Shown here in pieces: positions 1,552 through 49,733 of a stretch of 64,000 nt of DNA; position 1 is the stretch's first letter, and each line of letters starts with the position of its first letter. The DNA is from Pseudomonas sp. B6002 (GTDB taxonomy: Bacteria; Pseudomonadota; Gammaproteobacteria; Pseudomonadales; Pseudomonadaceae), in assembly GCF_013385985.1 (NCBI RefSeq), contig NZ_JACAOY010000002.1, forward strand, positions 62,001-126,000. The letters run 5' to 3'. The position numbers and the translations under genes are program-made. The notes below the pieces were generated by a model that was not told the origin of the DNA, ran no database searches, and saw only the letters and a list, made by a program, of their open reading frames with translations.

Positions 1552-3657
1552 TTGCCGAGCATAGACGCCCTCGCCGATCGCTTATCGACCTACCTCGGCC
1601 CAGACCAGGTCAACCTGGTCCGCCGAGCGTATTTCTACGCCGAACAAGCCCACGACGGCCAGCGCCGCCGCAGCGGCGAGGCGTATGTCACCCATCCTCT
1701 TGCGGTGGCAAACATTCTTGCCGACATGCACATGGACCATCAGAGCCTGATGGCCGCGATGCTGCATGACGTGATTGAAGACACCGGCATCGCCAAGGAA
1801 GCGCTCAGCGCACAATTTGGCGAAACCGTAGCCGAACTGGTCGACGGGGTCAGCAAACTGACCCAGATGAACTTCGAGACCAAGGCCGAAGCCCAGGCGG
1901 AAAACTTCCAGAAGATGGCCATGGCCATGGCACGCGACATCCGCGTGATCCTGGTCAAGCTGGCCGACCGGCTGCATAACATGCGCACGCTGGAAGTGCT
2001 GTCCGGCGAAAAGCGCCGGCGCATCGCCAAGGAAACCCTGGAAATCTACGCGCCCATCGCCAACCGGCTGGGCATGCACGCCATTCGTATCGAATTCGAA
2101 GACCTCGGCTTCAAGGCCATGCACCCGATGCGCTCAGCGCGCATTTACCAGGCGGTCAAGCGCGCCCGGGGCAACCGCAAGGAAATCGTCAACAAGATCG
2201 AAGAGTCCCTGAGCCATTGCCTGGCGATCGACGAGATCGAGGGTGAGGTCAGTGGCCGACAGAAGCACATCTACGGCATCTATAAAAAGATGCGCGGCAA
2301 GCGCCGTGCCTTCAACGAGATCATGGACGTGTACGCGTTCCGGATCATCGTCGACAAGGTCGACACCTGCTACCGCGTGCTGGGTGCTGTACATAATTTG
2401 TACAAACCCCTGCCGGGCCGCTTCAAGGACTACATCGCGATTCCCAAGGCCAACGGCTACCAGTCGCTGCATACCACGCTGTTCGGTATGCATGGCGTGC
2501 CGATCGAGATCCAGATCCGCACCCGCGAAATGGAAGAGATGGCCAACAACGGCATCGCCGCCCATTGGCTGTACAAATCCAGCGGCGACGAGCAGCCAAA
2601 AGGCACCCATGCCCGCGCCCGCCAGTGGGTCAAGGGCGTGCTGGAAATGCAGCAACGTGCCGGCAACTCCCTCGAATTTATCGAAAGCGTGAAGATCGAC
2701 CTGTTCCCCGACGAGGTCTACGTGTTCACGCCCAAAGGCCGGATCATGGAGCTGCCCAAAGGCTCCACGGCGGTCGACTTCGCTTATGCGGTGCACACCG
2801 ACGTGGGCAACAGCTGCATCGCCTGTCGGATCAATCGTCGTCTCGCACCGCTGTCTGAACCGCTGCAAAGCGGCTCCACGGTCGAGATTGTCAGCGCACC
2901 GGGCGCACGCCCGAACCCGGCGTGGCTCAACTTCGTGGTCACCGGCAAGGCGCGCACGCACATTCGCCACGCCCTGAAACTGCAGCGCCGCTCCGAGTCC
3001 ATCAGCCTCGGCGAACGCCTGCTGAACAAGGTGCTCAACGGCTTCGACAGTGCCCTGGACAAGATCCCGGCCGAGCGCGTGCAAGCGATGCTCCACGAAT
3101 ATCGTCAGGAAACCATCGAGGACCTGCTGGAAGATATCGGCCTGGGTAACCGCATGGCCTACGTGGTCGCCCGTCGCCTGCTCGGCGAGGGTGAACAGTT
3201 GCCAAGCCCCGAAGGCCCGCTGGCGATTCGCGGCACCGAAGGCCTGGTGCTCAGCTACGCCAAGTGCTGCACGCCGATCCCGGGCGACCCGATTGTCGGT
3301 CACCTGTCGGCAGGCAAAGGCATGGTGGTGCACCTGGACAACTGCCGCAACATCACCGAAATCCGCCACAACCCGGAAAAATGCATCCAGCTCTCGTGGG
3401 CCAAGGATGTCACCGGCGAATTCAACGTCGAGCTGCGGGTGGAGCTGGAACACCAGCGTGGCCTGATCGCCCTGCTGGCCAGCAGCGTCAACGCGGCCGA
3501 CGGCAATATCGAGAAAATCAGCATGGACGAGCGCGATGGTCGCATCAGCGTGGTCCAGTTGGTGGTCAGCGTCCACGACCGCGTGCACCTGGCCCGCGTG
3601 ATCAAGAAACTGCGCGCCTTGACTGGTGTGATTCGTATCACCCGCATGCGTGCATAA
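1552..3657 (+). CDS. spoT: Bifunctional (p)ppGpp synthetase/hydrolase SpoT
   Basis: A 701-aa RelA/SpoT enzyme that hydrolyses and makes the alarmone (p)ppGpp. Order of domains: HD hydrolase (about residues 25-180, with H72-D73 in LHDVIEDTG, so hydrolysis should be active), synthetase (about 235-350, with GRQKHIYGIYKKM), TGS (about 385-445, VYVFTPKGRIMELPKGSTAV), a helical/zinc-finger-like part, and C-terminal ACT (about 625-700). The start is a TTG preceded by CAGGAG (1537-1542); no ATG fits. ridA follows after 24 bp, so the two are probably one transcript. Confidence 0.97.
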   Translation: MPSIDALADRLSTYLGPDQVNLVRRAYFYAEQAHDGQRRRSGEAYVTHPLAVANILADMHMDHQSLMAAMLHDVIEDTGIAKEALSAQFGETVAELVDGVSKLTQMNFETKAEAQAENFQKMAMAMARDIRVILVKLADRLHNMRTLEVLSGEKRRRIAKETLEIYAPIANRLGMHAIRIEFEDLGFKAMHPMRSARIYQAVKRARGNRKEIVNKIEESLSHCLAIDEIEGEVSGRQKHIYGIYKKMRGKRRAFNEIMDVYAFRIIVDKVDTCYRVLGAVHNLYKPLPGRFKDYIAIPKANGYQSLHTTLFGMHGVPIEIQIRTREMEEMANNGIAAHWLYKSSGDEQPKGTHARARQWVKGVLEMQQRAGNSLEFIESVKIDLFPDEVYVFTPKGRIMELPKGSTAVDFAYAVHTDVGNSCIACRINRRLAPLSEPLQSGSTVEIVSAPGARPNPAWLNFVVTGKARTHIRHALKLQRRSESISLGERLLNKVLNGFDSALDKIPAERVQAMLHEYRQETIEDLLEDIGLGNRMAYVVARRLLGEGEQLPSPEGPLAIRGTEGLVLSYAKCCTPIPGDPIVGHLSAGKGMVVHLDNCRNITEIRHNPEKCIQLSWAKDVTGEFNVELRVELEHQRGLIALLASSVNAADGNIEKISMDERDGRISVVQLVVSVHDRVHLARVIKKLRALTGVIRITRMRA

Positions 3658-3681
3658 CCTGTCTCTTACAAGGAGTCACTC

Positions 3682-4062
3682 ATGACCAAGACTGTTATCA
3701 CCAGCGACAAGGCCCCGGCGGCCATCGGCACCTACTCCCAGGCCATCAAGGCGGGCAACACCGTCTACATGTCCGGCCAGATCCCGCTGGACCCAAAGAC
3801 CATGGAACTGGTGGAAGGCTTCGAAGCCCAGACCGTACAAGTCTTCGAGAACCTCAAGTCTGTTGCCGAAGCCGCTGGCGGTTCGTTCAAGGACATCGTC
3901 AAGTTGAACATCTTCCTCACCGACCTGAGCCACTTCGCCAAGGTCAACGAGATCATGGGCAAATACTTCGAACAACCCTACCCAGCCCGCGCCGCCATCG
4001 GCGTTGCTGCCCTGCCAAAGGGCGCACAGGTTGAGATGGACGCGATTCTGGTCATCGAGTAA
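3682..4062 (+). CDS. ridA: RidA family reactive intermediate/imine deaminase
   Basis: A 126-aa YjgF/YER057c/UK114 protein that hydrolyses reactive enamine/imine intermediates, such as 2-aminoacrylate released by PLP enzymes. The signature near the C-terminus, [20 protein letters not shown], holds the conserved arginine and glutamate. SGQIPLDP and the length are standard. The start has AAGGAGT upstream. It follows spoT closely in the same direction and is closed by a strong terminator just after the stop. Confidence 0.96.
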
Positions 4063-4068
4063 AACATC

Positions 4069-4104
4069 CGGCGCAGCCCTTAAAAGGCTGCGCCGACTTT
4101 GTTT
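4069..4104 (+). terminator. Rho-independent terminator after ridA
   Basis: CGGCGCAGCC (4069-4078) and GGCTGCGCCG (4086-4095) form a perfect 10-bp GC-rich stem with a 7-base loop, followed by ACTTTGTTT. It closes the spoT-ridA transcript and lies immediately before the next gene. Confidence 0.85.
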
Positions 4105-6027: not shown

Positions 6028-7044
6028 ATGACACGTAATACAAACCCCGCTTCGCCAACCAAGCCTCACAGCCCATCCCGCGCCTGGCGCGCGATTGCTG
6101 CGTTGCTGTTCAGCGTAATGCTGGCACCGACCGCCGCATTCGCCGATGCCACTGCACCGTCTGCTGCTCCAGCTGCCGCAGCACAAACACCCGCAGCGCA
6201 CGTCGAACAAATAGCTGTGCCAAAAAACGCTGACGGCACCGTCGACGTTTCCAAGCTGCCGCCGGAACTCAAAAACGCGATCGACGGCATCAATGCCCTG
6301 GGTGAAGAAGCTCAAGCCGAACAGGACAACTCCCTGGGCATGGCCCACGACCTGTCCCCATGGGGCATGTACCAGAACGCAGACGTCGTGGTGAAAGCCG
6401 TGATGATCGGCCTGGCCATTGCCTCGATCATCACCTGGACCATCTGGATCGCCAAGGGCTTCGAGCTGCTGGGCGCCAAACGCCGCCTGCGCACTGAAAT
6501 CGTCCACCTGAAAAAAGCCACCACCCTCAAGGAAGCGAGTGAAACCGCGACCAAGAAGGGCACCCTGGCCAACTTGCTGGTCCACGACGCTCTGGAAGAA
6601 ATGCGCCTGTCGGCCAACACCCGCGAAAAAGAAGGCATCAAGGAACGCGTCAGCTTCCGCCTGGAGCGCCTGGTCGCTGCCTGCGGTCGCAACATGAGCA
6701 GCGGCACCGGCGTGCTGGCAACCATCGGTTCTACCGCGCCGTTCGTCGGCCTGTTCGGTACCGTGTGGGGCATCATGAACAGCTTCATCGGCATCGCCAA
6801 AACCCAGACCACCAACCTCGCAGTCGTTGCCCCAGGCATCGCTGAAGCCCTGCTGGCCACGGCCCTGGGCCTGGTTGCCGCGATTCCTGCGGTGGTGATC
6901 TACAACGTCTTCGCCCGTTCCATCGCCGGCTACAAGGCCCAGGTATCGGACGCGTCGGCAGAAGTCCTGCTGCTGGTCAGCCGTGACCTCGATCACCTGC
7001 CTACCGAGCGCAGCTCGCAACCGCACATGGTGAAAGTGGGGTAA
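6028..7044 (+). CDS. exbB: TonB-system proton channel ExbB
   Basis: A 338-aa inner-membrane protein of the MotA/TolQ/ExbB family; with ExbD it uses the proton gradient to energise TonB. It begins with a signal-peptide-like segment (ALLFSVMLAPTAAFADA, about residues 26-42) and an Ala/Pro-rich periplasmic stretch, the long form found in pseudomonads. The first channel helix follows at about 120-145. The signature APFVGLFGTVWGIMNSF begins at about 234, and the C-terminal pair of helices carries ALLATALGLVAAIPAVVIYN. exbD starts 6 bp after the stop. The AT-rich 5906-5962 region upstream is a plausible place for Fur control, but I could not align a convincing 19-bp box. Confidence 0.95.
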   Translation: MTRNTNPASPTKPHSPSRAWRAIAALLFSVMLAPTAAFADATAPSAAPAAAAQTPAAHVEQIAVPKNADGTVDVSKLPPELKNAIDGINALGEEAQAEQDNSLGMAHDLSPWGMYQNADVVVKAVMIGLAIASIITWTIWIAKGFELLGAKRRLRTEIVHLKKATTLKEASETATKKGTLANLLVHDALEEMRLSANTREKEGIKERVSFRLERLVAACGRNMSSGTGVLATIGSTAPFVGLFGTVWGIMNSFIGIAKTQTTNLAVVAPGIAEALLATALGLVAAIPAVVIYNVFARSIAGYKAQVSDASAEVLLLVSRDLDHLPTERSSQPHMVKVG

Positions 7045-8445: not shown

Positions 8446-9366
8446 ATGACTCTTACAGAATTACGCTACATCGTGACCCTCGCCCAAGAGCAGCACTTCG
8501 GCCACGCGGCCGAGCGTTGCCATGTCAGCCAGCCGACGCTGTCGGTGGGTGTGAAAAAGCTTGAAGACGAACTCGGTGTGCTGATTTTCGAGCGCAGCAA
8601 GAGCGCCGTGCGCCTGACTCCGGTGGGCGAAGGCATCGTTGCCCAGGCCCAGAAGGTCCTGGAGCAAGCCCAAAGCATTCGCGAACTGGCCCAGGCCGGC
8701 AAAAACCAGCTGACGGCACCGCTCAAAGTCGGCGCCATCTACACCGTCGGCCCGTACCTGTTCCCGCACCTGATCCCGCAACTGCACCGCGTTGCGCCGC
8801 AGATGCCGCTGTATATCGAAGAAAACTTCACCCACGTGCTACGCGACAAACTGCGCAACGGCGAGCTGGACGCGATCATCATCGCCCTGCCGTTCAACGA
8901 GGCGGACGTACTCACCCTGCCGCTCTACGATGAGCCGTTCTACGTGCTGATGCCGGCCACCCACCCGTGGACGCAAAAAGACACCATCGACGCCGGCCTG
9001 CTCAACGACAAGAGCCTGCTACTGCTGGGCGAAGGCCACTGCTTCCGCGACCAGGTACTGGAAGCCTGCCCGACCCTGACCAAAGGCAACGACGGCGCCA
9101 AGCACACCACCGTGGAATCCAGCTCCCTGGAAACCATCCGCCACATGGTCGCCTCCGGCCTGGGCATTTCGATCCTGCCGCTCTCGGCAGTCGACAGCCA
9201 TCACTACGCCCCCGGCGTAATCGAAGTGCGCCCACTCACGCCACCCGTGCCATTCCGTACCGTGGCGATCGCCTGGCGTGCCAGCTTCCCACGGCCAAAG
9301 GCCATTGAGATCCTGGCCGACTCGATCCGCCTCTGCTCGGTGGCCAAGCCGACTGTTGCGAGCTGA
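8446..9366 (+). CDS. oxyR: Peroxide-sensing LysR-type regulator OxyR
   Basis: A 306-aa LysR-family regulator. The winged helix-turn-helix spans about residues 1-60 (AERCHVSQPTLSVGVKKLE). The redox switch is complete: C199 and C208 in GEGHCFRDQVLEACPTL, the exact numbering of E. coli OxyR. Oxidised OxyR activates catalase, alkyl hydroperoxide reductase and related genes. recG starts 8 bp after the stop, so the two are likely cotranscribed, as in other pseudomonads. Confidence 0.97.
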   Translation: MTLTELRYIVTLAQEQHFGHAAERCHVSQPTLSVGVKKLEDELGVLIFERSKSAVRLTPVGEGIVAQAQKVLEQAQSIRELAQAGKNQLTAPLKVGAIYTVGPYLFPHLIPQLHRVAPQMPLYIEENFTHVLRDKLRNGELDAIIIALPFNEADVLTLPLYDEPFYVLMPATHPWTQKDTIDAGLLNDKSLLLLGEGHCFRDQVLEACPTLTKGNDGAKHTTVESSSLETIRHMVASGLGISILPLSAVDSHHYAPGVIEVRPLTPPVPFRTVAIAWRASFPRPKAIEILADSIRLCSVAKPTVAS

Positions 9367-32093: not shown

Positions 32094-32600
32094 GTGGCGA
32101 AGCAAAGTTCTCAGAAATTCATCGCGCGCAACCGTGCGCCTCGAGTGCAGATCGAGTACGACGTCGAGCTCTACGGCGCCGAGAAAAAGGTCCAGCTGCC
32201 CTTCGTGATGGGCGTGATGGCCGACCTCGCCGGCAAGCCTGCCGAACCGCTCGCGCCCGTGGCCGACCGCAAGTTCCTTGAAGTGGACGTCGACAATTTC
32301 GACTCGCGCCTCAAGGCCATGCAGCCGCGCGTGGCGTTCCACGTACCGAACGAGCTAACCGGTGAAGGCAACCTGAGCCTGGACATCACCTTCGAAAGCA
32401 TGGACGACTTCAGCCCGGCCGCCGTGGCCCGCAAGGTCGACTCGCTGAACCAACTGCTCGAAGCCCGCACCCAGCTGGCCAACCTGCTGACCTACATGGA
32501 CGGCAAGACCGGCGCTGAAGAAATCATCATGAAGGCGATCAAGGACCCGGCACTGCTGCAAGCACTTGCCAGTGCGCCCAAGCCTGCAGGGGACCAGTAA
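32094..32600 (+). CDS. tssB: T6SS contractile sheath small subunit TssB (VipA)
   Basis: A 168-aa sheath protein with the typical opening SSQKFIARNRAPRVQIEYDV and the core motif LPFVMGVMADLAGK. TssB and TssC form the contractile tube, which ClpV dismantles by gripping the TssC N-terminus. The start is a GTG with AGGAGCAG upstream. tssC follows after 2 bp. Confidence 0.97.
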   Translation: MAKQSSQKFIARNRAPRVQIEYDVELYGAEKKVQLPFVMGVMADLAGKPAEPLAPVADRKFLEVDVDNFDSRLKAMQPRVAFHVPNELTGEGNLSLDITFESMDDFSPAAVARKVDSLNQLLEARTQLANLLTYMDGKTGAEEIIMKAIKDPALLQALASAPKPAGDQ

Positions 32601-32602
32601 TC

Positions 32603-34099
32603 ATGACTGACAATACCGCACGCGAAGGCGCCCCGATCCTGGGCGCTACCGAAGAAGCCAGCGAGTTCGCGAACCTGCTGCTGCAAGAATTCAAACCCAA
32701 GACCGAGCGTGCCCGCGAAGCCGTGGAAACCGCCGTGCGCACCTTGGCCGAACAGGCCCTGGCGCAAACCGACCTGGTGTCCAACGACGCGATCAAGTCG
32801 ATCGAATCGATCATCGCCGCCATCGACGCCAAGCTGACGGCCCAGGTCAACCAGATCATCCACCACCAGGATTTCCAGCAGCTGGAAAGCGCCTGGCGTG
32901 GCTTGCACTACCTGGTCAACAACACCGAGAGCGATGAGCAGCTCAAGATCCGCGTGCTCAACATCTCCAAGCCGGACCTGCACAAGACCCTGAAGAAGTT
33001 CAAGGGCACCGCGTGGGACCAGAGCCCGATCTTCAAGAAGATGTACGAAGAAGAATACGGCCAGTTCGGTGGCGAACCGTACGGCTGCCTGGTGGGCGAC
33101 TACTACTTCGACCAGTCACCTCCCGACGTGGAGCTGTTGGGCGAGCTGTCGAAAGTCTGCGCCGCCATGCACTCCCCGTTCATCGCCGCCGCTTCGCCGA
33201 CCGTGATGGGCATGGGTTCGTGGCAGGAACTGTCGAACCCACGCGACCTGACCAAGATCTTCACCACCCCGGAATACGCCGGCTGGCGCTCCCTGCGTGA
33301 ATCGGAAGACTCGCGCTACATCGGCCTGACCATGCCGCGCTTCCTGGCGCGCCTGCCGTACGGCGCCAAGACCGACCCGGTGGAAGCCTTCGCCTTCGAA
33401 GAAAACACCGACGGCGCCGACAGCTCCAAGTACACCTGGGCCAACGCCGCCTACGCGATGGCAGTGAACATCAACCGTTCGTTCAAGCATTACGGCTGGT
33501 GCTCGCGCATCCGTGGCGTGGAATCTGGCGGTGAAGTGGAAAACCTGCCGGCCCACACGTTCCCGACCGATGACGGTGGCGTGGACATGAAGTGCCCGAC
33601 CGAAATCGCCATCAGCGACCGCCGTGAAGCGGAGCTGGCGAAGAACGGTTTCATGCCGCTGCTGCACAAGAAAAACACCGACTTCGCCGCGTTCATCGGC
33701 GCCCAGTCGTTGCAGAAACCGGCCGAATACGACGACCCGGACGCCACCGCCAACGCCAACCTGGCCGCGCGCCTGCCGTACCTGTTCGCCACCTGCCGTT
33801 TCGCCCACTACTTGAAGTGCATCGTGCGCGACAAGATCGGTTCCTTCAAAGAGAAGGACGAGATGCAGCGCTGGTTGCAGGACTGGATCCTCAACTACGT
33901 GGACGGTGACCCTGCGCACTCCACCGAAACCACCAAGGCCCAGCACCCGTTGGCGGCGGCGGAAGTGATCGTGGAAGAAGTCGAAGGCAACCCGGGTTAC
34001 TACAACTCCAAGTTCTACCTGCGCCCGCACTACCAGCTTGAAGGGCTGACAGTGTCGCTGCGTCTGGTATCGAAGCTGCCTTCGGCCAAGAGCGCGTAA
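32603..34099 (+). CDS. tssC: T6SS contractile sheath large subunit TssC (VipB)
   Basis: A 498-aa sheath protein with the highly conserved phrases AWRGLHYLVNNTESDEQLKI, YGCLVGDYYFDQSPPDVELL and FAHYLKCIVRDKIGSF. The length is standard. It directly follows tssB and is separated from hcp by a 172-bp gap holding a REP hairpin. Confidence 0.98.
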   Translation: MTDNTAREGAPILGATEEASEFANLLLQEFKPKTERAREAVETAVRTLAEQALAQTDLVSNDAIKSIESIIAAIDAKLTAQVNQIIHHQDFQQLESAWRGLHYLVNNTESDEQLKIRVLNISKPDLHKTLKKFKGTAWDQSPIFKKMYEEEYGQFGGEPYGCLVGDYYFDQSPPDVELLGELSKVCAAMHSPFIAAASPTVMGMGSWQELSNPRDLTKIFTTPEYAGWRSLRESEDSRYIGLTMPRFLARLPYGAKTDPVEAFAFEENTDGADSSKYTWANAAYAMAVNINRSFKHYGWCSRIRGVESGGEVENLPAHTFPTDDGGVDMKCPTEIAISDRREAELAKNGFMPLLHKKNTDFAAFIGAQSLQKPAEYDDPDATANANLAARLPYLFATCRFAHYLKCIVRDKIGSFKEKDEMQRWLQDWILNYVDGDPAHSTETTKAQHPLAAAEVIVEEVEGNPGYYNSKFYLRPHYQLEGLTVSLRLVSKLPSAKSA

Positions 34100-34114
34100 G
34101 TAGCTGTTGAACCG

Positions 34115-34216
34115 GCTCTTCTGTGGGAGCCGGGCTTGCCCGCGATGCAGGCGGCGCGGTCCGGCAGGCAGACCGCGGTGATGCAATCGCAGGCAAGCCA
34201 GCTCCCACAGAAGAGC
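34115..34216. repeat. REP inverted repeat between tssC and hcp
   Basis: GCTCTTCTGTGGGAGC (34115-34130) and GCTCCCACAGAAGAGC (34201-34216) are perfect reverse complements, with REP cores GGGCTTGCC and GGCAAGCC inside. It sits between sheath genes and hcp and may protect the tssBC mRNA 3' end or let hcp be expressed separately. Confidence 0.88.
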
Positions 34217-34271
34217 AAAGCCCCATTGGGCTTAACCAAATTTCGTGGCCTGGGCCACACAGGGAGAAAAC

Positions 34272-34760
34272 ATGGCTGTTGATATTTTCATCAAGATCGG
34301 CGACATCAAGGGCGAGTCCATGGACAAGGCCCACAAGGACGAAATCGACGTGCTGAACTGGAGCTGGGGCATGGCCCAGTCCGGCAACATGCACGTGGGC
34401 GGCGGCGGCGGCGCGGGCAAGGTCAATATCCAGGACCTGTCGCTGACCAAGTACGTCGACAAAGCCTCGCCGAACCTGATGATGCACTGCGCCAGCGGCA
34501 AACACATCGACAAGGTCAAGCTCACCGTGCGCAAGGCCGGTGGCGAAAGCCAGGTCGAGTACATGGTGATCAACCTGGAAGAAGTGCTGGTGACCTCGCT
34601 GAGCACTGGCGGTTCGGGCACCGATGACCGCCTGACCGAGAACGTCACCCTGAACTTCGCCCAAGTGATGGTCGACTACCAGCCGCAGAAAGCCGACGGC
34701 ACCAAAGACGGCGGTGCGATCAAGTTTGGCTGGAACATCCGCTCCAACACCAAGCGCTGA
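34272..34760 (+). CDS. hcp: T6SS tube protein Hcp
   Basis: A 162-aa Hcp starting MAVDIFIKIGDIKGESMDKA, with the family core VLNWSWGMAQSGNMHVGGG and LTKYVDKASPNLM. Hexameric rings stack into the inner tube and carry small effectors. The ATG at 34272 has AGGGAGAA upstream. No extension or toxin domain is present. Confidence 0.98.
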   Translation: MAVDIFIKIGDIKGESMDKAHKDEIDVLNWSWGMAQSGNMHVGGGGGAGKVNIQDLSLTKYVDKASPNLMMHCASGKHIDKVKLTVRKAGGESQVEYMVINLEEVLVTSLSTGGSGTDDRLTENVTLNFAQVMVDYQPQKADGTKDGGAIKFGWNIRSNTKR

Positions 34761-41054: not shown

Positions 41055-42995
41055 ATGCTATTCAACCAAGCCTCACGCCTTGCCAAAGTCACCAGCCCCC
41101 TCGGGCCGGATGTGCTGCTGCTCAATGAAATGGGCGGCGGTGAAGAGCTGGGCAGGCTGTTCAACTATGAGCTGCAACTGACGTCCCTGGACGCCAACAT
41201 CGACCTCAACCAATTGCTCGGCAAACCCATGAGCGTGGGCCTGCAATTGGCGGATGGCGGTGAGCGGCACTTCCACGGCATCGTCGCGCGGTGCAGCCAG
41301 AACATCGACCAGGGCCAGTTCGCCAGCTATCAGGTGACCCTGCGCCCTTGGCTGTGGCTGCTGAGCCGTACCTCGGACTGTCGGATTTTCCAGAACCTGA
41401 GCATCCCGCAGATCATCAAGCAGGTGTTCCGCGACCTGGGGTTTTCCGACTTTGAGGACGCCCTGAGCCGGCCGTACCGCGAGTGGGAATACTGCGTGCA
41501 GTACCGCGAGACCAGCTTCGATTTCGTCAGCCGCCTGATGGAACAGGAAGGGATCTACTACTTCTTCCGCCATGAGCAGGACCGCCATGTGCTGGTGCTG
41601 GCCGATGCCTACGGTGCCCACACCACGGTGCCGGGCTACGCGTCGATCCCGTACTATCCCAAGGACGAGCAGCAGCGCGAACGCGACCATATGCACAACT
41701 GGCACCTGGCGCACGAGGTGCAGCCGGGGTCGCTGGAGCTCAACGACTACGACTTCCAGCGTCCCAGCGCCAGCATCGATGTGCGTTCGGCGATGCCGCG
41801 CCCACACACCGCCGGCGATTATCCGCTGTACGACTACCCCGGCACCTACGTGCAGAGCGAAGACGGCGAACACTACGCACGCACCCGCATCGAAGCCCTG
41901 CAAACCCTGCATGAGCAGATCGAGTTCAGCGGTAATGCGCGGGGCTTGGGCTCCGGCCATTTGTTCAGCCTCACCGGCTTCAGCCGCCAGGACCAGAACC
42001 GCGAATACCTGATCGTCGGCTGCCGCTACTACATCGTGCAGGAAAGCCTGGAAAGCGGCGGCGGCTCGGGTTCGGCACAGTTTGAAAGCAGCCTCACCTG
42101 TATCGACGCCCAACAGAGCTTCCGCCCGCTGGCCAATACGCATCGGCCTATCGTCAAGGGCCCGCAAACCGCCTTGGTGGTGGGCCCCAAGGGCGAGGAA
42201 ATCTGGACCGACCAGTACGGCCGCGTGAAGGTGCATTTCTATTGGGACCGCCATGACCAATCCAACGAAAACAGCTCGTGCTGGATTCGTGTGTCGCAGT
42301 CCTGGGCCGGCAAGAACTGGGGCTCGATGCAGATCCCACGGATCGGCCAGGAAGTGATTGTTAGCTTCCTTGAGGGTGACCCCGACCGGCCGATCATCAC
42401 CGGCCGCGTCTACAACGCCGAACAGACCGTGCCCTACGACCTGCCGGAAAACGCGACCCAGAGCGGCATGAAAAGCCGTTCGAGCAAAGGCGGCACGCCG
42501 GCCAACTTCAATGAAATCCGCATGGAGGACAAGAAGGGGTTGGAGCAGCTGTATATCCACGCCGAGCGCAACCAGGACATCGTGGTCGAGGTGGATGAGA
42601 GCCATTCGGTGGGGCATGACCGCAACAAGAGCATCGGCCACAACGAGACAGTGACCATCGGCAACAACCGCCTGCGCATCGTCAAGCAGGAAGACATCCT
42701 CTCGGTGGGCCAGAGGAAGACCGACAGCATCAGCCAGAGCTATGTCATCGAAGTCGGCGAAAATCTGCGCCTGGTCTGCGGCGAAAGCATTCTGGAGTTG
42801 AACGCCAGCGGGCAGATCAACCTCACCGGCGTGCAGATCAGCTTCTATGCCAGCGGCGATGCCGAGTTCAACACGGGTGGCGTACTGCACCTGAACAACG
42901 GCGGCGGCCCCGGTGCCACGCCCGATGGCCAGGGCCAGAAAGGCGCCATCGACGCCAATATCAAAGCCGCGTTCCCCGCGCCTAAAAGCTCCTGA
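41055..42995 (+). CDS. vgrG: T6SS spike protein VgrG
   Basis: A 646-aa VgrG: gp27-like base (about 1-380; FNYELQLTSLDANIDLNQLL, YREWEYCVQYRETSFDFVSR), gp5-like OB fold (VKVHFYWDRHDQSNENSSCW, IGQEVIVSFLEGDPDRPIIT) and a C-terminal beta-helix needle (about 500-620). It has no C-terminal effector domain. It caps the Hcp tube and should carry the downstream PAAR-Rhs protein, since the Eag chaperone and Rhs genes follow directly. Confidence 0.97.
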   Translation: MLFNQASRLAKVTSPLGPDVLLLNEMGGGEELGRLFNYELQLTSLDANIDLNQLLGKPMSVGLQLADGGERHFHGIVARCSQNIDQGQFASYQVTLRPWLWLLSRTSDCRIFQNLSIPQIIKQVFRDLGFSDFEDALSRPYREWEYCVQYRETSFDFVSRLMEQEGIYYFFRHEQDRHVLVLADAYGAHTTVPGYASIPYYPKDEQQRERDHMHNWHLAHEVQPGSLELNDYDFQRPSASIDVRSAMPRPHTAGDYPLYDYPGTYVQSEDGEHYARTRIEALQTLHEQIEFSGNARGLGSGHLFSLTGFSRQDQNREYLIVGCRYYIVQESLESGGGSGSAQFESSLTCIDAQQSFRPLANTHRPIVKGPQTALVVGPKGEEIWTDQYGRVKVHFYWDRHDQSNENSSCWIRVSQSWAGKNWGSMQIPRIGQEVIVSFLEGDPDRPIITGRVYNAEQTVPYDLPENATQSGMKSRSSKGGTPANFNEIRMEDKKGLEQLYIHAERNQDIVVEVDESHSVGHDRNKSIGHNETVTIGNNRLRIVKQEDILSVGQRKTDSISQSYVIEVGENLRLVCGESILELNASGQINLTGVQISFYASGDAEFNTGGVLHLNNGGGPGATPDGQGQKGAIDANIKAAFPAPKSS

Positions 42996-43010: not shown

Positions 43011-43445
43011 ATGACGTACCGCATCAACGAATTCCAGTTTCAACTGCCGGCCAGTGAGCTGCAGGACGCCTCGATCAATATCCTCAAGTTCCCTGAACTG
43101 GGGACTTCACTGATCGTCAGCCGCAGCCTGCTCGCCGAGGGTGAAACCCTGCACAGCAACTTCAATGACCAACTCCAGCGCCTGGAAAAACAGGTGCAGG
43201 ATTTACGCTATCAACCCGGTGTCGACGTGCGTTTGGGCGCGGCCCAAGAGGTGGAAGGCATTGAGCTGCGCAGCCAATTCAACAAGGGCAATGACAAGGT
43301 GTTCCAGTATCAACTGGCACTGGTGCTACCGGGTACGCGCAAGATGCTCGCCTTGAGTTACGTGAAGGCCGACAAGCTTGGGGATGCCGAGGCGGCGCAC
43401 TGGGCGTTGATCAAAAACTCGCTGTCGTTCGACGCTGTTTCCTGA
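43011..43445 (+). CDS. eagR: Eag-type effector chaperone (DUF1795/DcrB-like)
   Basis: A 144-aa protein (MTYRINEFQFQLPASELQDA) of the DUF1795 family. Such chaperones shield the N-terminal membrane helices of PAAR/Rhs effectors and load them onto VgrG. It lies 15 bp after vgrG and 12 bp before the rhs gene, the standard vgrG-eag-rhs order. Small soluble fold without signal peptide. Confidence 0.9.
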   Translation: MTYRINEFQFQLPASELQDASINILKFPELGTSLIVSRSLLAEGETLHSNFNDQLQRLEKQVQDLRYQPGVDVRLGAAQEVEGIELRSQFNKGNDKVFQYQLALVLPGTRKMLALSYVKADKLGDAEAAHWALIKNSLSFDAVS

Positions 43446-43457
43446 TGAGCTGCCTGC

Positions 43458-46400
43458 ATGTCTGACGCGTTATGGGCAGCCCGTATGGGCGATGCGCTCT
43501 CCCACACCTCGATGATGGCCGACATTCTCGGCGGTGTGCTGGAGGTCGCGGCCAACATCGCGATCACGGCCGTGGCCACGGCTGCCGTGGTCGCGGCCAC
43601 CGGGATTACCGTGGCCACCGGCGGGCTCGGCTGCTTCCTGCTGGGGGCCGTGGTGGGCACGATCGTCGGCCTGGCCATGAGCAAGACCGGGGCGGACAAA
43701 GGCCTGACGAATTTATGCGATAGCTTCAGCAACGCGCTATTCCCGCCCACGGTGCAGGCGAACATTCTCACCGGTTCCACCGACACCCTCACCAACAACC
43801 TTCCCGCGGCCCGCGCAGCCGGTGCGATCAGCTCCCATGTCGCGCCAGCGGGCACCGAGCTGGAAGCACCCGCGCCAGAACCCAGCTACCTGGACATGGC
43901 CGAGAGCTTCTTCTCGCAGATGTGGCGCCCTACCGTCGCGACGCCTGCGCCAGGTGCAGTGCCCAAGCCGCTGGACCTGGTCACGTGCATGAAGCACCCG
44001 CCGATGCCGCCGCAGTTTCTGGCCGAGGGCTCGGACAAGGTCACCGTCAACGGCCAGCCCGCCGTGCGCAGCGGCGACCGCAGCACGTGCGATGCGACGG
44101 TGGTGTCGTCGGGGCTGATTTCTTCCAACGTGACCATCGGTGGCGGTTCGGTGGTGGTGCGTGAGATCCGCAGTGGCAAGACCCCGGGCGTCGGCCTGGC
44201 GGTCACGGCGCTGTTGATGCTCAAGGGTGGCAAGGGCAAGTTCTTCAGCAAGTTGCCGTGCATGCTGATCGGCGGGGCCACGTCGATGGCGGTCAGCAGC
44301 GCGATGGGGGCCGTGGCGAACGCAGCGATGGGTTCATCGAATCCGGTGCATGCGGCCACGGGCGCGAAGGTGCTGGGCAATGCCGAGGAACTGGATTTTG
44401 TGCTGCCCGGCATCCTGCCGATCGACTGGCAGCGCTTCTACAACAGCCGCGATGAGCGCCCGCGCGGAATGTTGGGCGCAGGCTGGAGCGTCCCATATGA
44501 AGTGTGCGTCGAGATCCTGCCCCATTCAGAGGGCGGTGAAACGCTGATTTATACCGATGAGCAAGGTCGGCCTATCGACATGGGCTCGATTCCCTTGGGC
44601 GGCGCGGTATTCAGCGCCGGTGAAGGGCTCGCGGTGCGGCGTCACCTCAATGGGCAGTTGCTAATCGAGAGCGATGACGGCCTGTATCGCTTGCTTGAAC
44701 CCTCCGCCAACCCGTCGCTGCTGCGCCTTACTCAATTGGGCGACCGAAACGACAACCGCATCTATATCGATTATGACGAAGCCGGGCACATGGTGCGGCT
44801 ACGCGACACATTCGACCTGGTGCAGGTTGAGTTGATCCGTGATCAGGGCCAGTTGGCGCGCATCGAACGTCTGTACCCTGATCAGCGCCGAGAAGTGCTG
44901 GTCAGCTATGGCTTCGACGCGCAGGGCAACCTGGCTGAAGTGCGCGATGCGACGGGCCAGGTTCAGCGTCGTTTTGCCTACGACAGCGGTCGCAGGATGG
45001 TGGAGCATCAACTGCCGACCGGGCTTCGTTGCTTCTACGAATGGTCTTTGGTTGAAGGTTTGGAATGGCGCGTGGTACGGCACTGGACCGATGAGGGCGA
45101 CGCTTACCAGTTCGACTATGACTTGCAGGTCGGTATCACCCGTATTACCGACGGCTTGCAACGCGTCAGTACCCGGCATTGGAACACCCAACACCAGATC
45201 ATTCGTTACAGCGACAACCTTGACCACACCTGGCTGTTCGAATGGAACGACGAGCGCCAGTTGCTCAGCGCCACCGACCCGCTGGGCGGGCGCTTTGAAT
45301 ACAGCTACGACGAGGCCGGCAACCTGATCGGCGAAACCGACCCGCTGGGTCGCAGCGATTCGACGCTGTGGTTGGAACATTGGGCCTTGCCCCTGGTGGA
45401 AACCGACGCCGCCGAAAGCAGCTGGCAATATCGCTATGACTCACGCGGCAACTGCATCGCCGAAACCGATCCACTGGGCTACGTCACGCGCTATCGTTAT
45501 GACGCCCACGGCCAGCCCGTGGAAATTATTGACGCCACTGGCAAAAGCAAAAAGCTGCGCTGGAACCCGTTCGGACAACTGGTCGAGCACATCGACTGCT
45601 CAGGTTACCCGACGCGATTCAGCTACGACGAGCGCGGCTATCTGCAGGTCATTACCGATGCCCTGGGTGAGCGTACCCAATTCAGCTATGACGCCCAGGG
45701 CCGTCTGCTCACCACCCAATTGCCGGACGGCCGTACTGAGCAGTACCAGCGCGCGGTCAGCGGCCAATTGGTGGGCTACACCGACCCGGCCGGGCATACG
45801 ACGCTCTATCAACATAATCGCCGTGGCCTAGTCAGCCAGCGCATCGACGCCCATGGCCGGCAGGTGCAGTTCGGCTATGACAGCTATGGACGGCTGCAAG
45901 CGCTGATCAACGAAAACGACGAGCGTTATCGTTTTGCCTGGGATGCTGGCGACCGTCTGGTTGAACAGCAGGACCTCGACGGCAGCGTCAAGCACTACAG
46001 CTATGACCCGCTGGATAACGTCACGGCGGTGACTGCCGTGCCGGCGCCTTACGGAAACGGTCTGGCCCTGGTGCCCGAAACGCCGCCCGCGCCTATCGTC
46101 CATCGATTGGAACGCGATGCAGTGGGCCGGCTGATTGCCAAGACCACCGACGATGGCCGCACCGACTACAGCTACGACGCAGTGGACCAGCTCACGGCTG
46201 TCACCTTCACCGATTCGCAGGGCAACGTCCAAACCCTGGGCTTTGCCTACGATGCCCTCGGCCAACTGCTTTGCGAGCAGAGTTCGGCGGGCAACCTGCA
46301 ACACCACTACGACGAACTCGGCAACCTGATCCAGACCCAACTGCCGGACGGCCGCTGGCTCAATCGCCTGTATTACGGCAGCGGCCATCTGCACCAGATC

Positions 46401-47837
46401 AACCTCGACGGCCAGGTCGTCAGCGACTTTGAGCGTGACCGCCTGCACCGCGAAGTACTGCGCACCCAGGGCCAACTCACCACCCGCAGCGAATACGACC
46501 GTAGTGGCCGCCTGCGTTCGCGCCAACGCCGCTTGGCAAGTCAGCCATCGTTGATGCCGGCGGCTGCGCAAAAGCAGTTCGAATACGATCCCGCCGACAA
46601 CCTGATCGGCAAACTCGACCAACAACCCGCCGCACAGCACCGCCAACTGCTGCACTACGACGCCACCGGCCGCATCATCGCCAGCCAAGACAGCCTGCAC
46701 GGCCAGCGCGAAACCTTCGCCTACGACGCCGCCGCCAACCTGCTGGACGGCCCGCAGGCGGGTGCCGGGTTGGTGGTGCATAACAAGTTGCTGACCTATC
46801 AGGACAAGCGTTATTGCTACGATGCGTTTGGGCGGATGATCGAAAAACGCAGCGCCAAACGGGGCGTGCAGCGGTTTGCCTACGATGCTGAAAGCCGCTT
46901 GATTGAAGTGCGTAACGATGACGGCAGCGTCGTGCGAATGGCCTACGACCCGCTGGGCCGACGCATCGAAAAAACCCAGCATGGCAGTGACGGGTATCCG
47001 CTGGGAGGAACGCAGTTTGTGTGGGATGGACTGCGGTTGTTGCAGGAGCATAAACACAGCCAGACCAGCCTCTTTGTTTACGACGATGACGGCTATGAAC
47101 TGCTGGCCCGCGTCGATGGCATGGGCCCGTTGCAGAAGATTCGTTACTACCACAACGATCTAAATGGGTTGCCGGAACAACTGACCGAGGCCGATGGGCA
47201 CAGCGTCTGGCAGGCGACTTACCGTGTGTGGGGCAACACGCTGGAGGAGGTGCGCGAGCCTTATTACATTGAAGAGCAGAATCTGCGGTTCCAGGGGCAG
47301 TATCTGGATCGGGAGACGGGGCTGCATTTCAATACGTTCAGGTTTTATGATCCGGATGTGGGGCGGTTTACGACGCCGGATCCGATTGGGTTGCTGGGTG
47401 GCCTGAACCTCTACTCGTACGGTGCAAACCCTATTACCTGGCTGGATCCACTAGGCTGGACCCCAACGCCCCTAAACAAACCTGGTTTCTATGTTTACGG
47501 GCTCTACGCCCCCGGTGCTAAAACGCCTTACTACATCGGTCACACCGAGCAGGATCCTGCGGCGCGTGAAAGTCAGCACGACAGGTCCACGCGGCTTGGA
47601 AAAGGAGAGCTGCGTGTGTTGAAAGGTCAGGACGGCAAGATGACTTACTCTCAAGCCAAAGGTTACGAACAGGCCTACCGAGAGAAATACAAAACAAAAG
47701 GCAAATTCCCCGGCAACGTCATCGAACCCATCAATAAAAGCCGCACTGATGCACGGGGCAAAAGTCACTATAAAAACTACAGGGCTGCGGCCAAAGCGCT
47801 GGGCATCAAGCCGAGCAAAATCAAATCTTGTACCTAA
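43458..47837 (+). CDS. rhs: PAAR-Rhs effector with GIY-YIG-like nuclease tip
   Basis: A 1459-aa polymorphic toxin. The N-terminus has the pre-PAAR motif AARMGDALSHTS and two hydrophobic segments (about 27-75) for the Eag chaperone; a PAAR-type region (about 165-245); then Rhs/YD repeats (about 290-1290) forming a cocoon. The conserved end motif runs from YDPDVGRF to DPLGW (W1334), where the toxin is self-cleaved. The 125-residue tip has VYGLY (1346-1350), YYIGHT (1358-1363), R1370, H1374 and a glutamate in GYEQAY (E1404), the pattern of GIY-YIG nucleases; this is my reading by eye. The tip is more AT-rich than the rest, as for swapped tips. Confidence 0.9.
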   Translation: MSDALWAARMGDALSHTSMMADILGGVLEVAANIAITAVATAAVVAATGITVATGGLGCFLLGAVVGTIVGLAMSKTGADKGLTNLCDSFSNALFPPTVQANILTGSTDTLTNNLPAARAAGAISSHVAPAGTELEAPAPEPSYLDMAESFFSQMWRPTVATPAPGAVPKPLDLVTCMKHPPMPPQFLAEGSDKVTVNGQPAVRSGDRSTCDATVVSSGLISSNVTIGGGSVVVREIRSGKTPGVGLAVTALLMLKGGKGKFFSKLPCMLIGGATSMAVSSAMGAVANAAMGSSNPVHAATGAKVLGNAEELDFVLPGILPIDWQRFYNSRDERPRGMLGAGWSVPYEVCVEILPHSEGGETLIYTDEQGRPIDMGSIPLGGAVFSAGEGLAVRRHLNGQLLIESDDGLYRLLEPSANPSLLRLTQLGDRNDNRIYIDYDEAGHMVRLRDTFDLVQVELIRDQGQLARIERLYPDQRREVLVSYGFDAQGNLAEVRDATGQVQRRFAYDSGRRMVEHQLPTGLRCFYEWSLVEGLEWRVVRHWTDEGDAYQFDYDLQVGITRITDGLQRVSTRHWNTQHQIIRYSDNLDHTWLFEWNDERQLLSATDPLGGRFEYSYDEAGNLIGETDPLGRSDSTLWLEHWALPLVETDAAESSWQYRYDSRGNCIAETDPLGYVTRYRYDAHGQPVEIIDATGKSKKLRWNPFGQLVEHIDCSGYPTRFSYDERGYLQVITDALGERTQFSYDAQGRLLTTQLPDGRTEQYQRAVSGQLVGYTDPAGHTTLYQHNRRGLVSQRIDAHGRQVQFGYDSYGRLQALINENDERYRFAWDAGDRLVEQQDLDGSVKHYSYDPLDNVTAVTAVPAPYGNGLALVPETPPAPIVHRLERDAVGRLIAKTTDDGRTDYSYDAVDQLTAVTFTDSQGNVQTLGFAYDALGQLLCEQSSAGNLQHHYDELGNLIQTQLPDGRWLNRLYYGSGHLHQINLDGQVVSDFERDRLHREVLRTQGQLTTRSEYDRSGRLRSRQRRLASQPSLMPAAAQKQFEYDPADNLIGKLDQQPAAQHRQLLHYDATGRIIASQDSLHGQRETFAYDAAANLLDGPQAGAGLVVHNKLLTYQDKRYCYDAFGRMIEKRSAKRGVQRFAYDAESRLIEVRNDDGSVVRMAYDPLGRRIEKTQHGSDGYPLGGTQFVWDGLRLLQEHKHSQTSLFVYDDDGYELLARVDGMGPLQKIRYYHNDLNGLPEQLTEADGHSVWQATYRVWGNTLEEVREPYYIEEQNLRFQGQYLDRETGLHFNTFRFYDPDVGRFTTPDPIGLLGGLNLYSYGANPITWLDPLGWTPTPLNKPGFYVYGLYAPGAKTPYYIGHTEQDPAARESQHDRSTRLGKGELRVLKGQDGKMTYSQAKGYEQAYREKYKTKGKFPGNVIEPINKSRTDARGKSHYKNYRAAAKALGIKPSKIKSCT

Positions 47838-47850
47838 AAGAGGCTGCTGT

Positions 47851-48420
47851 ATGAAAACCCTCAAGGCACCCAAGCCGGGTGATCTTTTCTACATCCCAGC
47901 CCTCAACGCTTCAGATGAGCCTGGCTTTGTGATTGCACGCTATATCGAGATGATTCCTCCTGCGCTGGGACATCTGATTGAGGTTTTTGAGAAATTCTAT
48001 ACACAAATCCCAACCTCGATCAGCGAGGTGGACACCTCAAAACGTTTGTTTCGACCGATTTTCTGCAGCATGCGTTTTTCAGATCTCCCTCGCTGGAAGA
48101 TTCTTTTCAGTGACCCCGACTACACAAAATCCACCTCTGGTTATGACAGAATTCAATTCGCGTTTGAGTCAGAAATCTGGACCGGCGGCGTAAGCAAGCC
48201 CGCATCTGAGGAACAGTTGGTAAATATTGAACCCTCAATTTGCTGGCGTATGCATCACATAATTTTCAGAGTAATTGCCCATCTGCGTGGAGCGCTAACA
48301 GAGGACGAGGTCATGGACTATGAGCACACACCCGACGACTTACGCATTGATAGCGTTACCGCTTCAGAGCGCGTAAACAAGGCAGTCCGGAATACGCAAG
48401 AATTGTTTGACTCCAAATAA
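47851..48420 (+). CDS. Probable immunity protein for the Rhs tip (Imm26-like)
   Basis: A 189-aa protein placed 13 bp after the rhs stop, where the cognate immunity protein is always found. It opens MKTLKAPKPGDLFYIPALNA and continues FVIARYIEM, which resembles the G-D-x-F-x-I-P-L start of Imm26-type proteins; this match is by eye. The C-terminal third has a helix pair (WRMHHIIFRVIAHLRGALT). The ATG has GAGG 7 bp upstream. The gene is AT-rich with codon use unlike the T6SS core, as expected for a horizontally moved tip-immunity cassette. No signal peptide, so it should act on a cytoplasmic toxin. Confidence 0.7.
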   Translation: MKTLKAPKPGDLFYIPALNASDEPGFVIARYIEMIPPALGHLIEVFEKFYTQIPTSISEVDTSKRLFRPIFCSMRFSDLPRWKILFSDPDYTKSTSGYDRIQFAFESEIWTGGVSKPASEEQLVNIEPSICWRMHHIIFRVIAHLRGALTEDEVMDYEHTPDDLRIDSVTASERVNKAVRNTQELFDSK

Positions 48421-48516
48421 AAATAGACCGCTTACTCAACGATAAAGGCGATGGCGATAAAGGGGACGGGTCTATTTACTCCAAACAGGGACTATAAATA
48501 AATCTGACCCCTTTAT
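48421..48516. repeat. Small inverted-repeat element at the Rhs cassette junction
   Basis: Two 22-bp arms (48457-48478 and 48495-48516) are imperfect reverse complements (about 18 of 22); one contains AAAGGGGACGGGTCTATTT and the other AAATAAATCTGACCCCTTT. A third copy of the AAATAGACC end (48421-48429) faces the first arm. No ORF is present. It looks like a MITE-like or REP-like mobile hairpin. It ends exactly where Rhs homology resumes. Confidence 0.6.
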
Positions 48517-49029
48517 CTTTATGACCCCGATATCGGCAGATTCACTACAGAAGACCCGGTTGGATTGCTGGGCGGCATTAACCTCTATCAGTACACCACC
48601 AACCCTCTGGGCTGGAGTGACCCACTGGGCTGGTGCTCGACGAAGCTAGGCAAGAACATGGGGGCTCGCAAAGGTGACGGTATGGCCAACCATCACCTGA
48701 TACCCGAGGAGCTGATCAAACACAAAGAGTTCGGCAAAATGTTCTCCAGGCTGAAAAAGATAGGTTGGGACCCGGATGGCGCCTCCAACGGTGCTTTCCT
48801 GCCAGGATCAAAAGACCTTGCCGCCAAAACGCAGCTTCCTGGACATTGGTCGAACCATAACAAGTACACCGATGCTGTCAGGGACAGGCTCAGGGGCTTG
48901 AACAAACAACAAGTCGGGTTATCTGATATGGACCTCGCACTGGAAGTCTCGAACATCCAAAAATGGGCGAGCGGCGGGCTGCAGAATGGCCTCTTCAAAG
49001 CTGATGCAGTTACAGGACGACTTTTATGA
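48517..49029 (+). pseudogene. Displaced Rhs C-terminal tip with AHH-type nuclease domain
   Basis: The frame opens right after a stop codon and the inverted-repeat element and has no Rhs start. It begins LYDPDIGRFTTEDPVGLL and reaches DPLGW, matching the end of the Rhs core (about 36 codons), then a new tip of about 125 residues. The tip has MANHHLIPEELIKH, NGAFLPG and HWSNHNKYTDAV, the layout of AHH-type HNH/endonuclease VII nucleases. A free-standing nuclease could start at ATG 48658 or TTG 48565. It overlaps the next gene by 4 bp. It is best read as an orphan tip kept as a spare toxin cassette. Confidence 0.8.
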
Positions 49030-49652
49030 CCGGCGCCAGCGCTGATTTTTTCATCGTGAACTACCACACCAACGGGGCGGATGCGCCCAGCTTCTTTGAG
49101 TCGGACTGGACTCCTGGCGTCCCGGAGTTTCATTACCCTTCAGAAACACCGGATGAGAGTCAGTTTGCTAGCGCTTATAAAGTCAAAGCCAAGATCAAGG
49201 AGTTGAAAGCGGACCTCATGATTGAGGAGTTGCTGGCGACAGATGCCGTCTTGAACATCTGCGCAACGCTCGAAATTCCTCATATCACGCGTCAGGTCGA
49301 GATAGAGTTAAAAGGAAAAAAAACACCTGAAAAACGCTACAACCTTTTCGTTCCGACCGCCCGACTCAGCCTGCTTGATCTTGAGCATTCGGTATTCACC
49401 ATCGACCGCGACAAATACACCGGCAAACTCAAGACACCAGAAGAAAGTGATGTACCCGCTATCGTTTTTGAGTCCATCGAATCATTCAAGATAAAACCAG
49501 GCATTCATCAACACCTGTTTCTATGCACGGATATTAACGAAACGGTCTGTTCGGCTGAGTTCAAGGCGATGTTCGAATCCAAGGCGCTCTTTGGGCTAGC
49601 GTTCACACCGTTGGATGCCACTTATAAATTTGATCCTTGGGGGGAGTTGTAA
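49026..49652 (+). CDS. Probable immunity protein of the orphan tip (Imm11/DUF1629-like)
   Basis: A 208-aa protein whose ATG overlaps the orphan-tip stop (ATGA), so it is translationally coupled to the toxin fragment. The opening (SADFFIVNYHTNG) and the later FVPTARLSLLDLEHSVFTID and FLCTDINETVCSAEFKAMFE resemble the DUF1629/Imm11 group of immunity proteins; this match is by eye. AT-rich with unlike codon use, no signal peptide. It should neutralise the AHH-type nuclease if the tip is ever made, or protect against sister cells that carry it. Confidence 0.7.
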   Translation: MTGASADFFIVNYHTNGADAPSFFESDWTPGVPEFHYPSETPDESQFASAYKVKAKIKELKADLMIEELLATDAVLNICATLEIPHITRQVEIELKGKKTPEKRYNLFVPTARLSLLDLEHSVFTIDRDKYTGKLKTPEESDVPAIVFESIESFKIKPGIHQHLFLCTDINETVCSAEFKAMFESKALFGLAFTPLDATYKFDPWGEL

Positions 49653-49690
49653 CCGGGAGGTTACTACTGGCCTGACATTCTCCAGCCTAC

Positions 49691-49733
49691 AAAAAATGGG
49701 CACCCGACCCAGTCGGCGTGCCCATTCTTTTTA
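49691..49733. terminator. Bidirectional terminator between immunity gene and HU gene
   Basis: AATGGGCAC (49695-49703) pairs with GTGCCCATT (49718-49726), extended by CCGAC/GTCGG inside. A-run on the left and T-run (CTTTTT) on the right make it work for both strands: the rightward Rhs module and the leftward HU gene. Confidence 0.85.

Follow-up and report, generated by a model that had tools for sequence, protein, structure and literature searches.

The effector described here is encoded in a stretch of 64,000 nucleotides from Pseudomonas sp. B6002 (RefSeq assembly GCF_013385985.1, contig NZ_JACAOY010000002.1, positions 62,001 to 126,000 of the forward strand), referred to below as the window, whose first letter is position 1. 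It is very probably an Rhs effector delivered by the type VI secretion system (T6SS), with a swappable tip of the GIY-YIG (URI) fold that cuts DNA and an Imm26-like protein that protects the producer. The gene order, the conservation of the nuclease signature, the resemblance of the predicted fold and the recurrence of Imm26-type neighbours are observed directly. The open reading frame (ORF) of 1459 residues and its 125-residue tip are present where the first-pass annotation, made from the sequence letters, had placed them. Tip residue n corresponds to Rhs residue 1334+n.

43458..47837, + strand: PAAR-Rhs effector of 1459 residues (PAAR_motif, E = 9.5e-11; RHS_repeat, E = 1.4e-81).
47460..47834, + strand: C-terminal tip, residues 1335-1459, a probable GIY-YIG (Tox-URI1-like) nuclease domain (invariant columns, PF01541 in relatives, AlphaFold model).
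47851..48420, + strand: Imm26-like protein of 189 residues, the predicted cognate immunity protein (weak PF15428 match, E = 0.014, 16.1 bits, below the cutoff of 23.3).

Conserved signature residues of the tip

The predicted active residues of the tip are Y1347, Y1359, G1361, R1370, H1374 and E1404. All six are invariant among eight aligned tips, in which the seven relatives are 29-92% identical to the window, and again in a nine-tip alignment (A5), in which two tips come from other families within the phylum and the orphan tip L011 is omitted. The hallmarks of GIY-YIG nucleases are thereby present in 9 of 9 tips, namely the GIY and YIG tyrosines (Y1347 and Y1359), the helix arginine (R1370) and the later-helix glutamate (E1404). 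The first-pass annotation had pointed to VYGLY...YYIGHT followed by R1370, H1374 and E1404. The invariant columns show that these key residues were chosen correctly except for the GIY tyrosine: the three later residues never vary, not every letter of the motif is conserved, and four relatives have F or T at the final Y of VYGLY (Y1350), the invariant tyrosine being Y1347 of 'YVY'. The window tip and three relatives lack an insert that the other subgroup carries past the N[KR] position. The tip of B. paludis (L004) was dropped from the tip alignments because it is frameshifted; at 3617-4074 of that locus, the tip relative is split across two frames, and the downstream gene is open.

Shuffling the tip 200,000 times produced the ordered signature once, for a pattern devised after the tip had been viewed. 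A looser regular expression, which follows the Tox-URI1 motif as published (Y, YxG, R, [RK]xxE, N), matches the tip as well, and is weak on its own because 5323 of 200,000 shuffles match it too. The GC content of third codon positions (GC3) falls from 0.76 in the core to 0.58 in the tip, in agreement with the earlier remark that the tip is the AT-richer part, and is 0.53 in the following gene.

Two observations concern the C-terminal end of the tip. All nine tips of A5 share a cysteine at tip residue 124 (47829-47831), near the C-terminus; it was rejected as a general feature because it is absent from a tip of Bernardetia (L034) and lies away from the end in the orphan L011. Residues 104-124 of the tip (47769-47831) resemble, weakly, a NUMOD1 helix (E = 0.061 in the window; found in two of eight tips, best E = 0.021), NUMOD1 being a DNA-binding module of homing endonucleases.

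Family-level matches and predicted fold

Scanned alone against Pfam, the window tip has no PF01541 match at E ≤ 1. Direct searches of Pfam, NCBIfam and the PDB with the tip return no GIY-YIG match, nor does a profile of eight tips searched against the PDB. PF01541 is matched at E ≤ 1 by 9 of the 11 tips scanned, and the two off-target matches of the tip profile that were scanned are both standalone GIY-YIG proteins. The tip's AlphaFold model places helices at tip residues 33-41 and 63-77; it resembles UvrC, Slx1 and R.Eco29kI, and one fold dominates the list of matching structures. The structure prediction proposed in the first-pass annotation gave this resemblance at moderate model confidence and with weak Foldseek E-values. 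Together, the family-level sequence evidence, the standalone GIY-YIG proteins among the off-target matches and the predicted fold support the assignment of the tip to GIY-YIG.

A chance resemblance within another fold would agree with the weak Foldseek E-values and with the missing direct Pfam or PDB sequence match of the window tip; given the family-level Pfam matches, the residues that never vary and the prevalence of a single fold in the structure list, it is highly improbable. The divergence of the tip, large enough to escape the Pfam model, might also mean that its GIY-YIG domain has decayed or lost its activity and is retained as a decoy or for the sake of immunity. We consider this very unlikely, as the predicted catalytic residues are retained in the window and in its 92%-identical relative, and the frames of both the tip and the neighbouring gene are open.

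Relatives of the tip are sparse. Within the genus, 8 of 299 genomes have one, counting that of the window, and so do three further genome-contig loci, two of them from Burkholderia; L002 (Pseudomonas sp. K2I15) and G095 are counted as a single relative. A profile search of the phylum recovered true tips in 2 of 397 genomes besides the window's, plus one weak match, and the same search of the class recovered none in 368 genomes besides the window's, its four weak matches being standalone proteins. Around the two phylum genomes, no new tip was found in sets of 248 and 249 genomes, the latter giving three weak matches. Plasmid records hold two tip relatives, and none was found in phage records (E ≤ 0.01) or viral contigs. 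In addition, L029 carries at 1447-2538 an open frame of 364 residues ending in the pattern YVGIT-R-EH-EQ-NKINS, possibly a more typical Tox-URI1 toxin.

Imm26-type neighbours and the likely substrate

The gene for the 189-residue protein begins 13 bases past the stop codon of the tip, and its frame is open. Its Imm26-like features, noted in the first-pass annotation, are seen in the weak PF15428 match and in the recurrence of Imm26-type neighbours in relatives. Among the 12 loci with such a tip whose next gene was scanned, that gene matches Imm26 at E ≤ 1 in nine (the window, L002, L014-L018, L026 and L034). At the same threshold there is no Imm26 match for the next genes at L003, L004 and L025; the proteins at L003 and L004 are 31% and 29% identical, respectively, to the 189-residue protein. 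All six members of one alignment of these proteins (A2) match PF15428 at E ≤ 1, the best relative with E = 6e-11, and hhalign relates A2 to a further alignment (A4) at 99.7%, the window protein being common to both. The AlphaFold model of the 189-residue protein (predicted local distance difference test score, 79.6) has no clear match in the PDB.

The sequence of the tip does not fix its substrate, and the tip might act on RNA or another nucleic acid rather than on chromosomal DNA. Three enzymes that act on DNA, UvrC, R.Eco29kI and Slx1, are among the matching structures. A Salmonella paper calls Imm26 typical of RNase toxin systems (PMC11669294), which would favour RNA. Against this, TkeA, an Rhs protein annotated as GIY-YIG, is reported to degrade lambda DNA (PMC12302616), and the Imm26 protein TipC is reported to neutralise the DNase TepC (PMC10833071), both likened to the present pair by description. 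On balance, a substrate other than DNA is unlikely.

Locus layout and proposed mechanism

The effector gene adjoins a T6SS cluster, as the positions of tssB, tssC and hcp indicate.

32094..34760, + strand: T6SS genes tssB, tssC and hcp (PF05591, PF05943 and PF05638).
41055..42995, + strand: VgrG spike protein (Phage_GPD, E = 4e-108; Gp5_trimer_C, E = 2.6e-33).
43011..43445, + strand: DcrB-family protein, likely the Eag-type chaperone of the Rhs effector (PF08786, E = 1.6e-18).

Upstream of the Rhs ORF, genes for ImpA_N, tssB, tssC, hcp and tssG lie on the + strand and IcmF on the − strand; in the genome of the window (6.68 Mb, 51 contigs) there are three genes for VipB-type sheath proteins, and the window contains one of these. 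PF08786 (DcrB family) is the Pfam family that contains the Eag chaperones. The PAAR domain, the Rhs shell, and the upstream genes for VgrG and an Eag-type chaperone, by which T6SS Rhs effectors are recognised, are all found, and the rhsA locus of P. protegens has the identical vgrG-eagR-rhs order (PMC8765631). The Rhs_assc_core match (E = 2e-25) ends at residue 1333. The boundary between shell and toxin reads PITWLDPLGW, with W at the final position, where the boundary motif of T6SS Rhs effectors, PxxxxDPxGL, has L (PMC8636562). The prePAAR motif scores 10.4 bits in the Rhs ORF, for a cutoff of 25.

The mechanism established for T6SS Rhs effectors comprises loading by Eag and VgrG, enclosure in the shell, aspartyl autoproteolysis and action in the target cell (PMC8765631, PMC8636562). 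By analogy, it most likely applies to the present effector as well, and we infer delivery, cleavage, DNA as the substrate, toxicity and neutralisation as follows. VgrG and the Eag-type chaperone would load the effector, the Rhs shell would enclose the tip, and aspartyl autoproteolysis near PITWLDPLGW would free it. In a neighbour that lacks protection, the tip would cut DNA using the GIY and YIG tyrosines, R1370, H1374 and E1404 together with a metal ion, and in the producer the 189-residue Imm26-like protein would bind the tip and prevent damage.

Exchange of toxin cassettes at the locus

Downstream of the immunity gene, a palindrome separates the tip cassette from a second one (48518-49652), which consists of an AHH orphan and an Imm11-like gene.

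48457..48517, no strand assigned: imperfect palindrome between the cassettes (arms 48459-48477 and 48496-48514).
48518..49029, + strand: displaced (orphan) Rhs 3' end with an AHH nuclease tip (PF14412, E = 4e-16).
49026..49652, + strand: Imm11-like protein, predicted immunity protein for the AHH orphan (PF07791, E = 0.0028, 17.4 bits, below the cutoff of 22.1).

The orphan end is identical to the core end (47344-47459) in 82 of 117 alignment columns. A related genome (G209) shares the locus with the window on both flanks, has no BLAST match for 47422-49691 of the window, and has an Rhs core that ends in another GIY-YIG tip. That tip of G209 recurs in a further genome (G017) as a displaced cassette with a truncated start, where the sequence is 94% identical to G209. 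Syntenic relatives thus display replacement of the tip at one locus. At L013 and L016, this same-locus exchange is seen as a core-fused tip in G209 that corresponds to the truncated orphan cassette in G017. Recombination between main and orphan rhs ends has been demonstrated in Salmonella, and the exchange of rhs tips has been ascribed to recombination within the conserved core (PMC3967940).

A palindrome possibly associated with CdiA and Rhs cassettes

The palindrome lies between the 189-residue immunity gene and the AHH orphan. Its 19-base arm, with up to one mismatch, occurs once in the genome of the window; of 299 genomes of the genus, 122 contain the exact arm, and a reversed control pattern gave 0 in every genome row. 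The right end of the palindrome (48517) is where homology between the window and G017 stops, and a second copy in G017 adjoins the truncated orphan tip there. In L013, palindrome copies lie at about 6511-6571 and 8702-8762.

Eight palindrome regions were selected for clustering of copies, four examined by gene listing and four by motif scan alone. Each of the former has palindromes among the small genes downstream of a large CdiA- or Rhs-type gene; the motif scan of the latter found two Y1-type motifs and no Rhs end. In one of the four gene-listed regions, Pfam gives the order CdiA with a ribonuclease tip, Barstar, palindromes, GH-E toxin, SUFU and palindrome. For a less biased sample, G017 and the genome of the window were set aside, and the first listed copy was taken from 29 of the 122 genomes. 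A CdiA or Rhs homologue lies within about 10 kb of 15 of these 29 copies, compared to 0 of 35 control positions hand-chosen in 15 of the 29 genomes (Fisher p = 5e-7), and 14 of the sampled copies have no such neighbour. Query proteins were drawn from four of these regions, each tested with its own query excluded, and five regions were shortened by contig ends, some to 4.6-10.9 kb. This homology test replaced a regular-expression classifier, discarded after it had recognised one of six calibration loci.

The median GC content is 0.45 around linked copies, 0.47 around unlinked copies and 0.62 in control windows. Because the copies sit in low-GC surroundings, a preference for AT-rich DNA may explain part of the link to CdiA and Rhs genes; when the comparison is limited to the seven control regions containing a low-GC stretch, the enrichment is 15 of 29 versus 0 of 7 (p = 0.027). 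An ORF with a Y1-transposase motif is present in 5 of 31 small loci around copies (L039, L046, L055, L059 and L061), a lax match in L063 being excluded from the count, and the one such ORF that was scanned belongs to PF01797.

A literature search with three T-variant palindrome strings, the window's own A variant being outside it, did not find them. A narrow search gave, among the matches listed, no paper title linking palindromes, repetitive extragenic palindromic (REP) elements or REP-associated tyrosine transposase (RAYT) elements with contact-dependent inhibition (CDI) or Rhs. A Pseudomonas genomics paper describes REP elements on either side of RAYT genes; a search of it for 'Rhs' gave no match (PMC3390384). 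As a lead, the association of the palindrome with CdiA and Rhs cassettes is more unusual than the toxin pair itself. A speculative and rather unlikely reading is that tip, immunity gene and palindrome form one mobile unit, the palindrome helping Rhs and CdiA cassettes of Pseudomonas to be exchanged or stacked. It is an equally speculative part of this proposal that the palindrome is related to a Y1-type (RAYT-like) transposase, such that toxins would be swapped not by core homology alone. If the lead is true, an element at the junctions of Rhs and CdiA cassettes would provide a second, testable route of tip exchange beside core recombination.

Comparison with known systems

The tip family, which the first-pass annotation could not assign to a described one, is already described in kind as Tox-URI1 with Imm26 (PMC3482391). 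Zhang et al. (2012) define Tox-URI1 by the motif Y, YxG, R, [RK]xxE, N and report RHS repeats, T6SS and, among its immunity partners, Imm26 (PMC3482391). The present tip shares with it the predicted URI/GIY-YIG fold, the order of the motif, the RHS repeats, the T6SS route and an Imm26-like partner: RHS repeats are found in the ORF and an Imm26-type gene is next to it, with the window match below the cutoff. The window tip differs in having no direct PF01541 match, and the 2012 members are compared by description, as are TkeA, Nte4 and Bae2 below.

In the pair TkeA-TkiA of Yersinia pseudotuberculosis, TkeA is secreted by the T6SS, is toxic in E. coli with relief by the next gene, and is a DNase in vitro (PMC12302616). 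It is likewise an Rhs protein annotated as GIY-YIG, and differs in that its critical residue is an aspartate, D186. Nte4 of Neisseria cinerea, an Rhs protein with a GIY-YIG tip, is toxic in E. coli and relieved by its own immunity protein; its authors found PAAR in Nte1 and Nte2 only (PMC8263058). The PAAR-RhsA-GIY-YIG protein of Salmonella pathogenicity island 6 (SPI-6) shares the PAAR-Rhs architecture and a predicted GIY-YIG tip (PMC10469887, PMC11669294), whereas CdiI, not Imm26, is named beside it (PMC10469887). Bae2 of Bacteroides acidifaciens combines PAAR-Rhs with a toxin domain resembling GIY-YIG endonucleases, but belongs to a Bacteroidales T6SS (PMC12694586). The Rhs locus on a Bernardetia plasmid (NZ_CP147019.1, L034) has the same order as the window, a GIY-YIG tip and Imm26 followed by AHH and an immunity gene; it differs in a DUF4259 gene between the pairs, in an AHH partner that is Imm43 and not Imm11-like, and in coming from another phylum.

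In sum, the pairing of a GIY-YIG toxin with a protective neighbour has previously been described in other bacteria, and the window pair is a divergent, new GIY-YIG/Imm26 pair of this known class. Among antibacterial toxins of this class, the effector contributes a pair that the Pfam model overlooks when the pair is scanned by itself.
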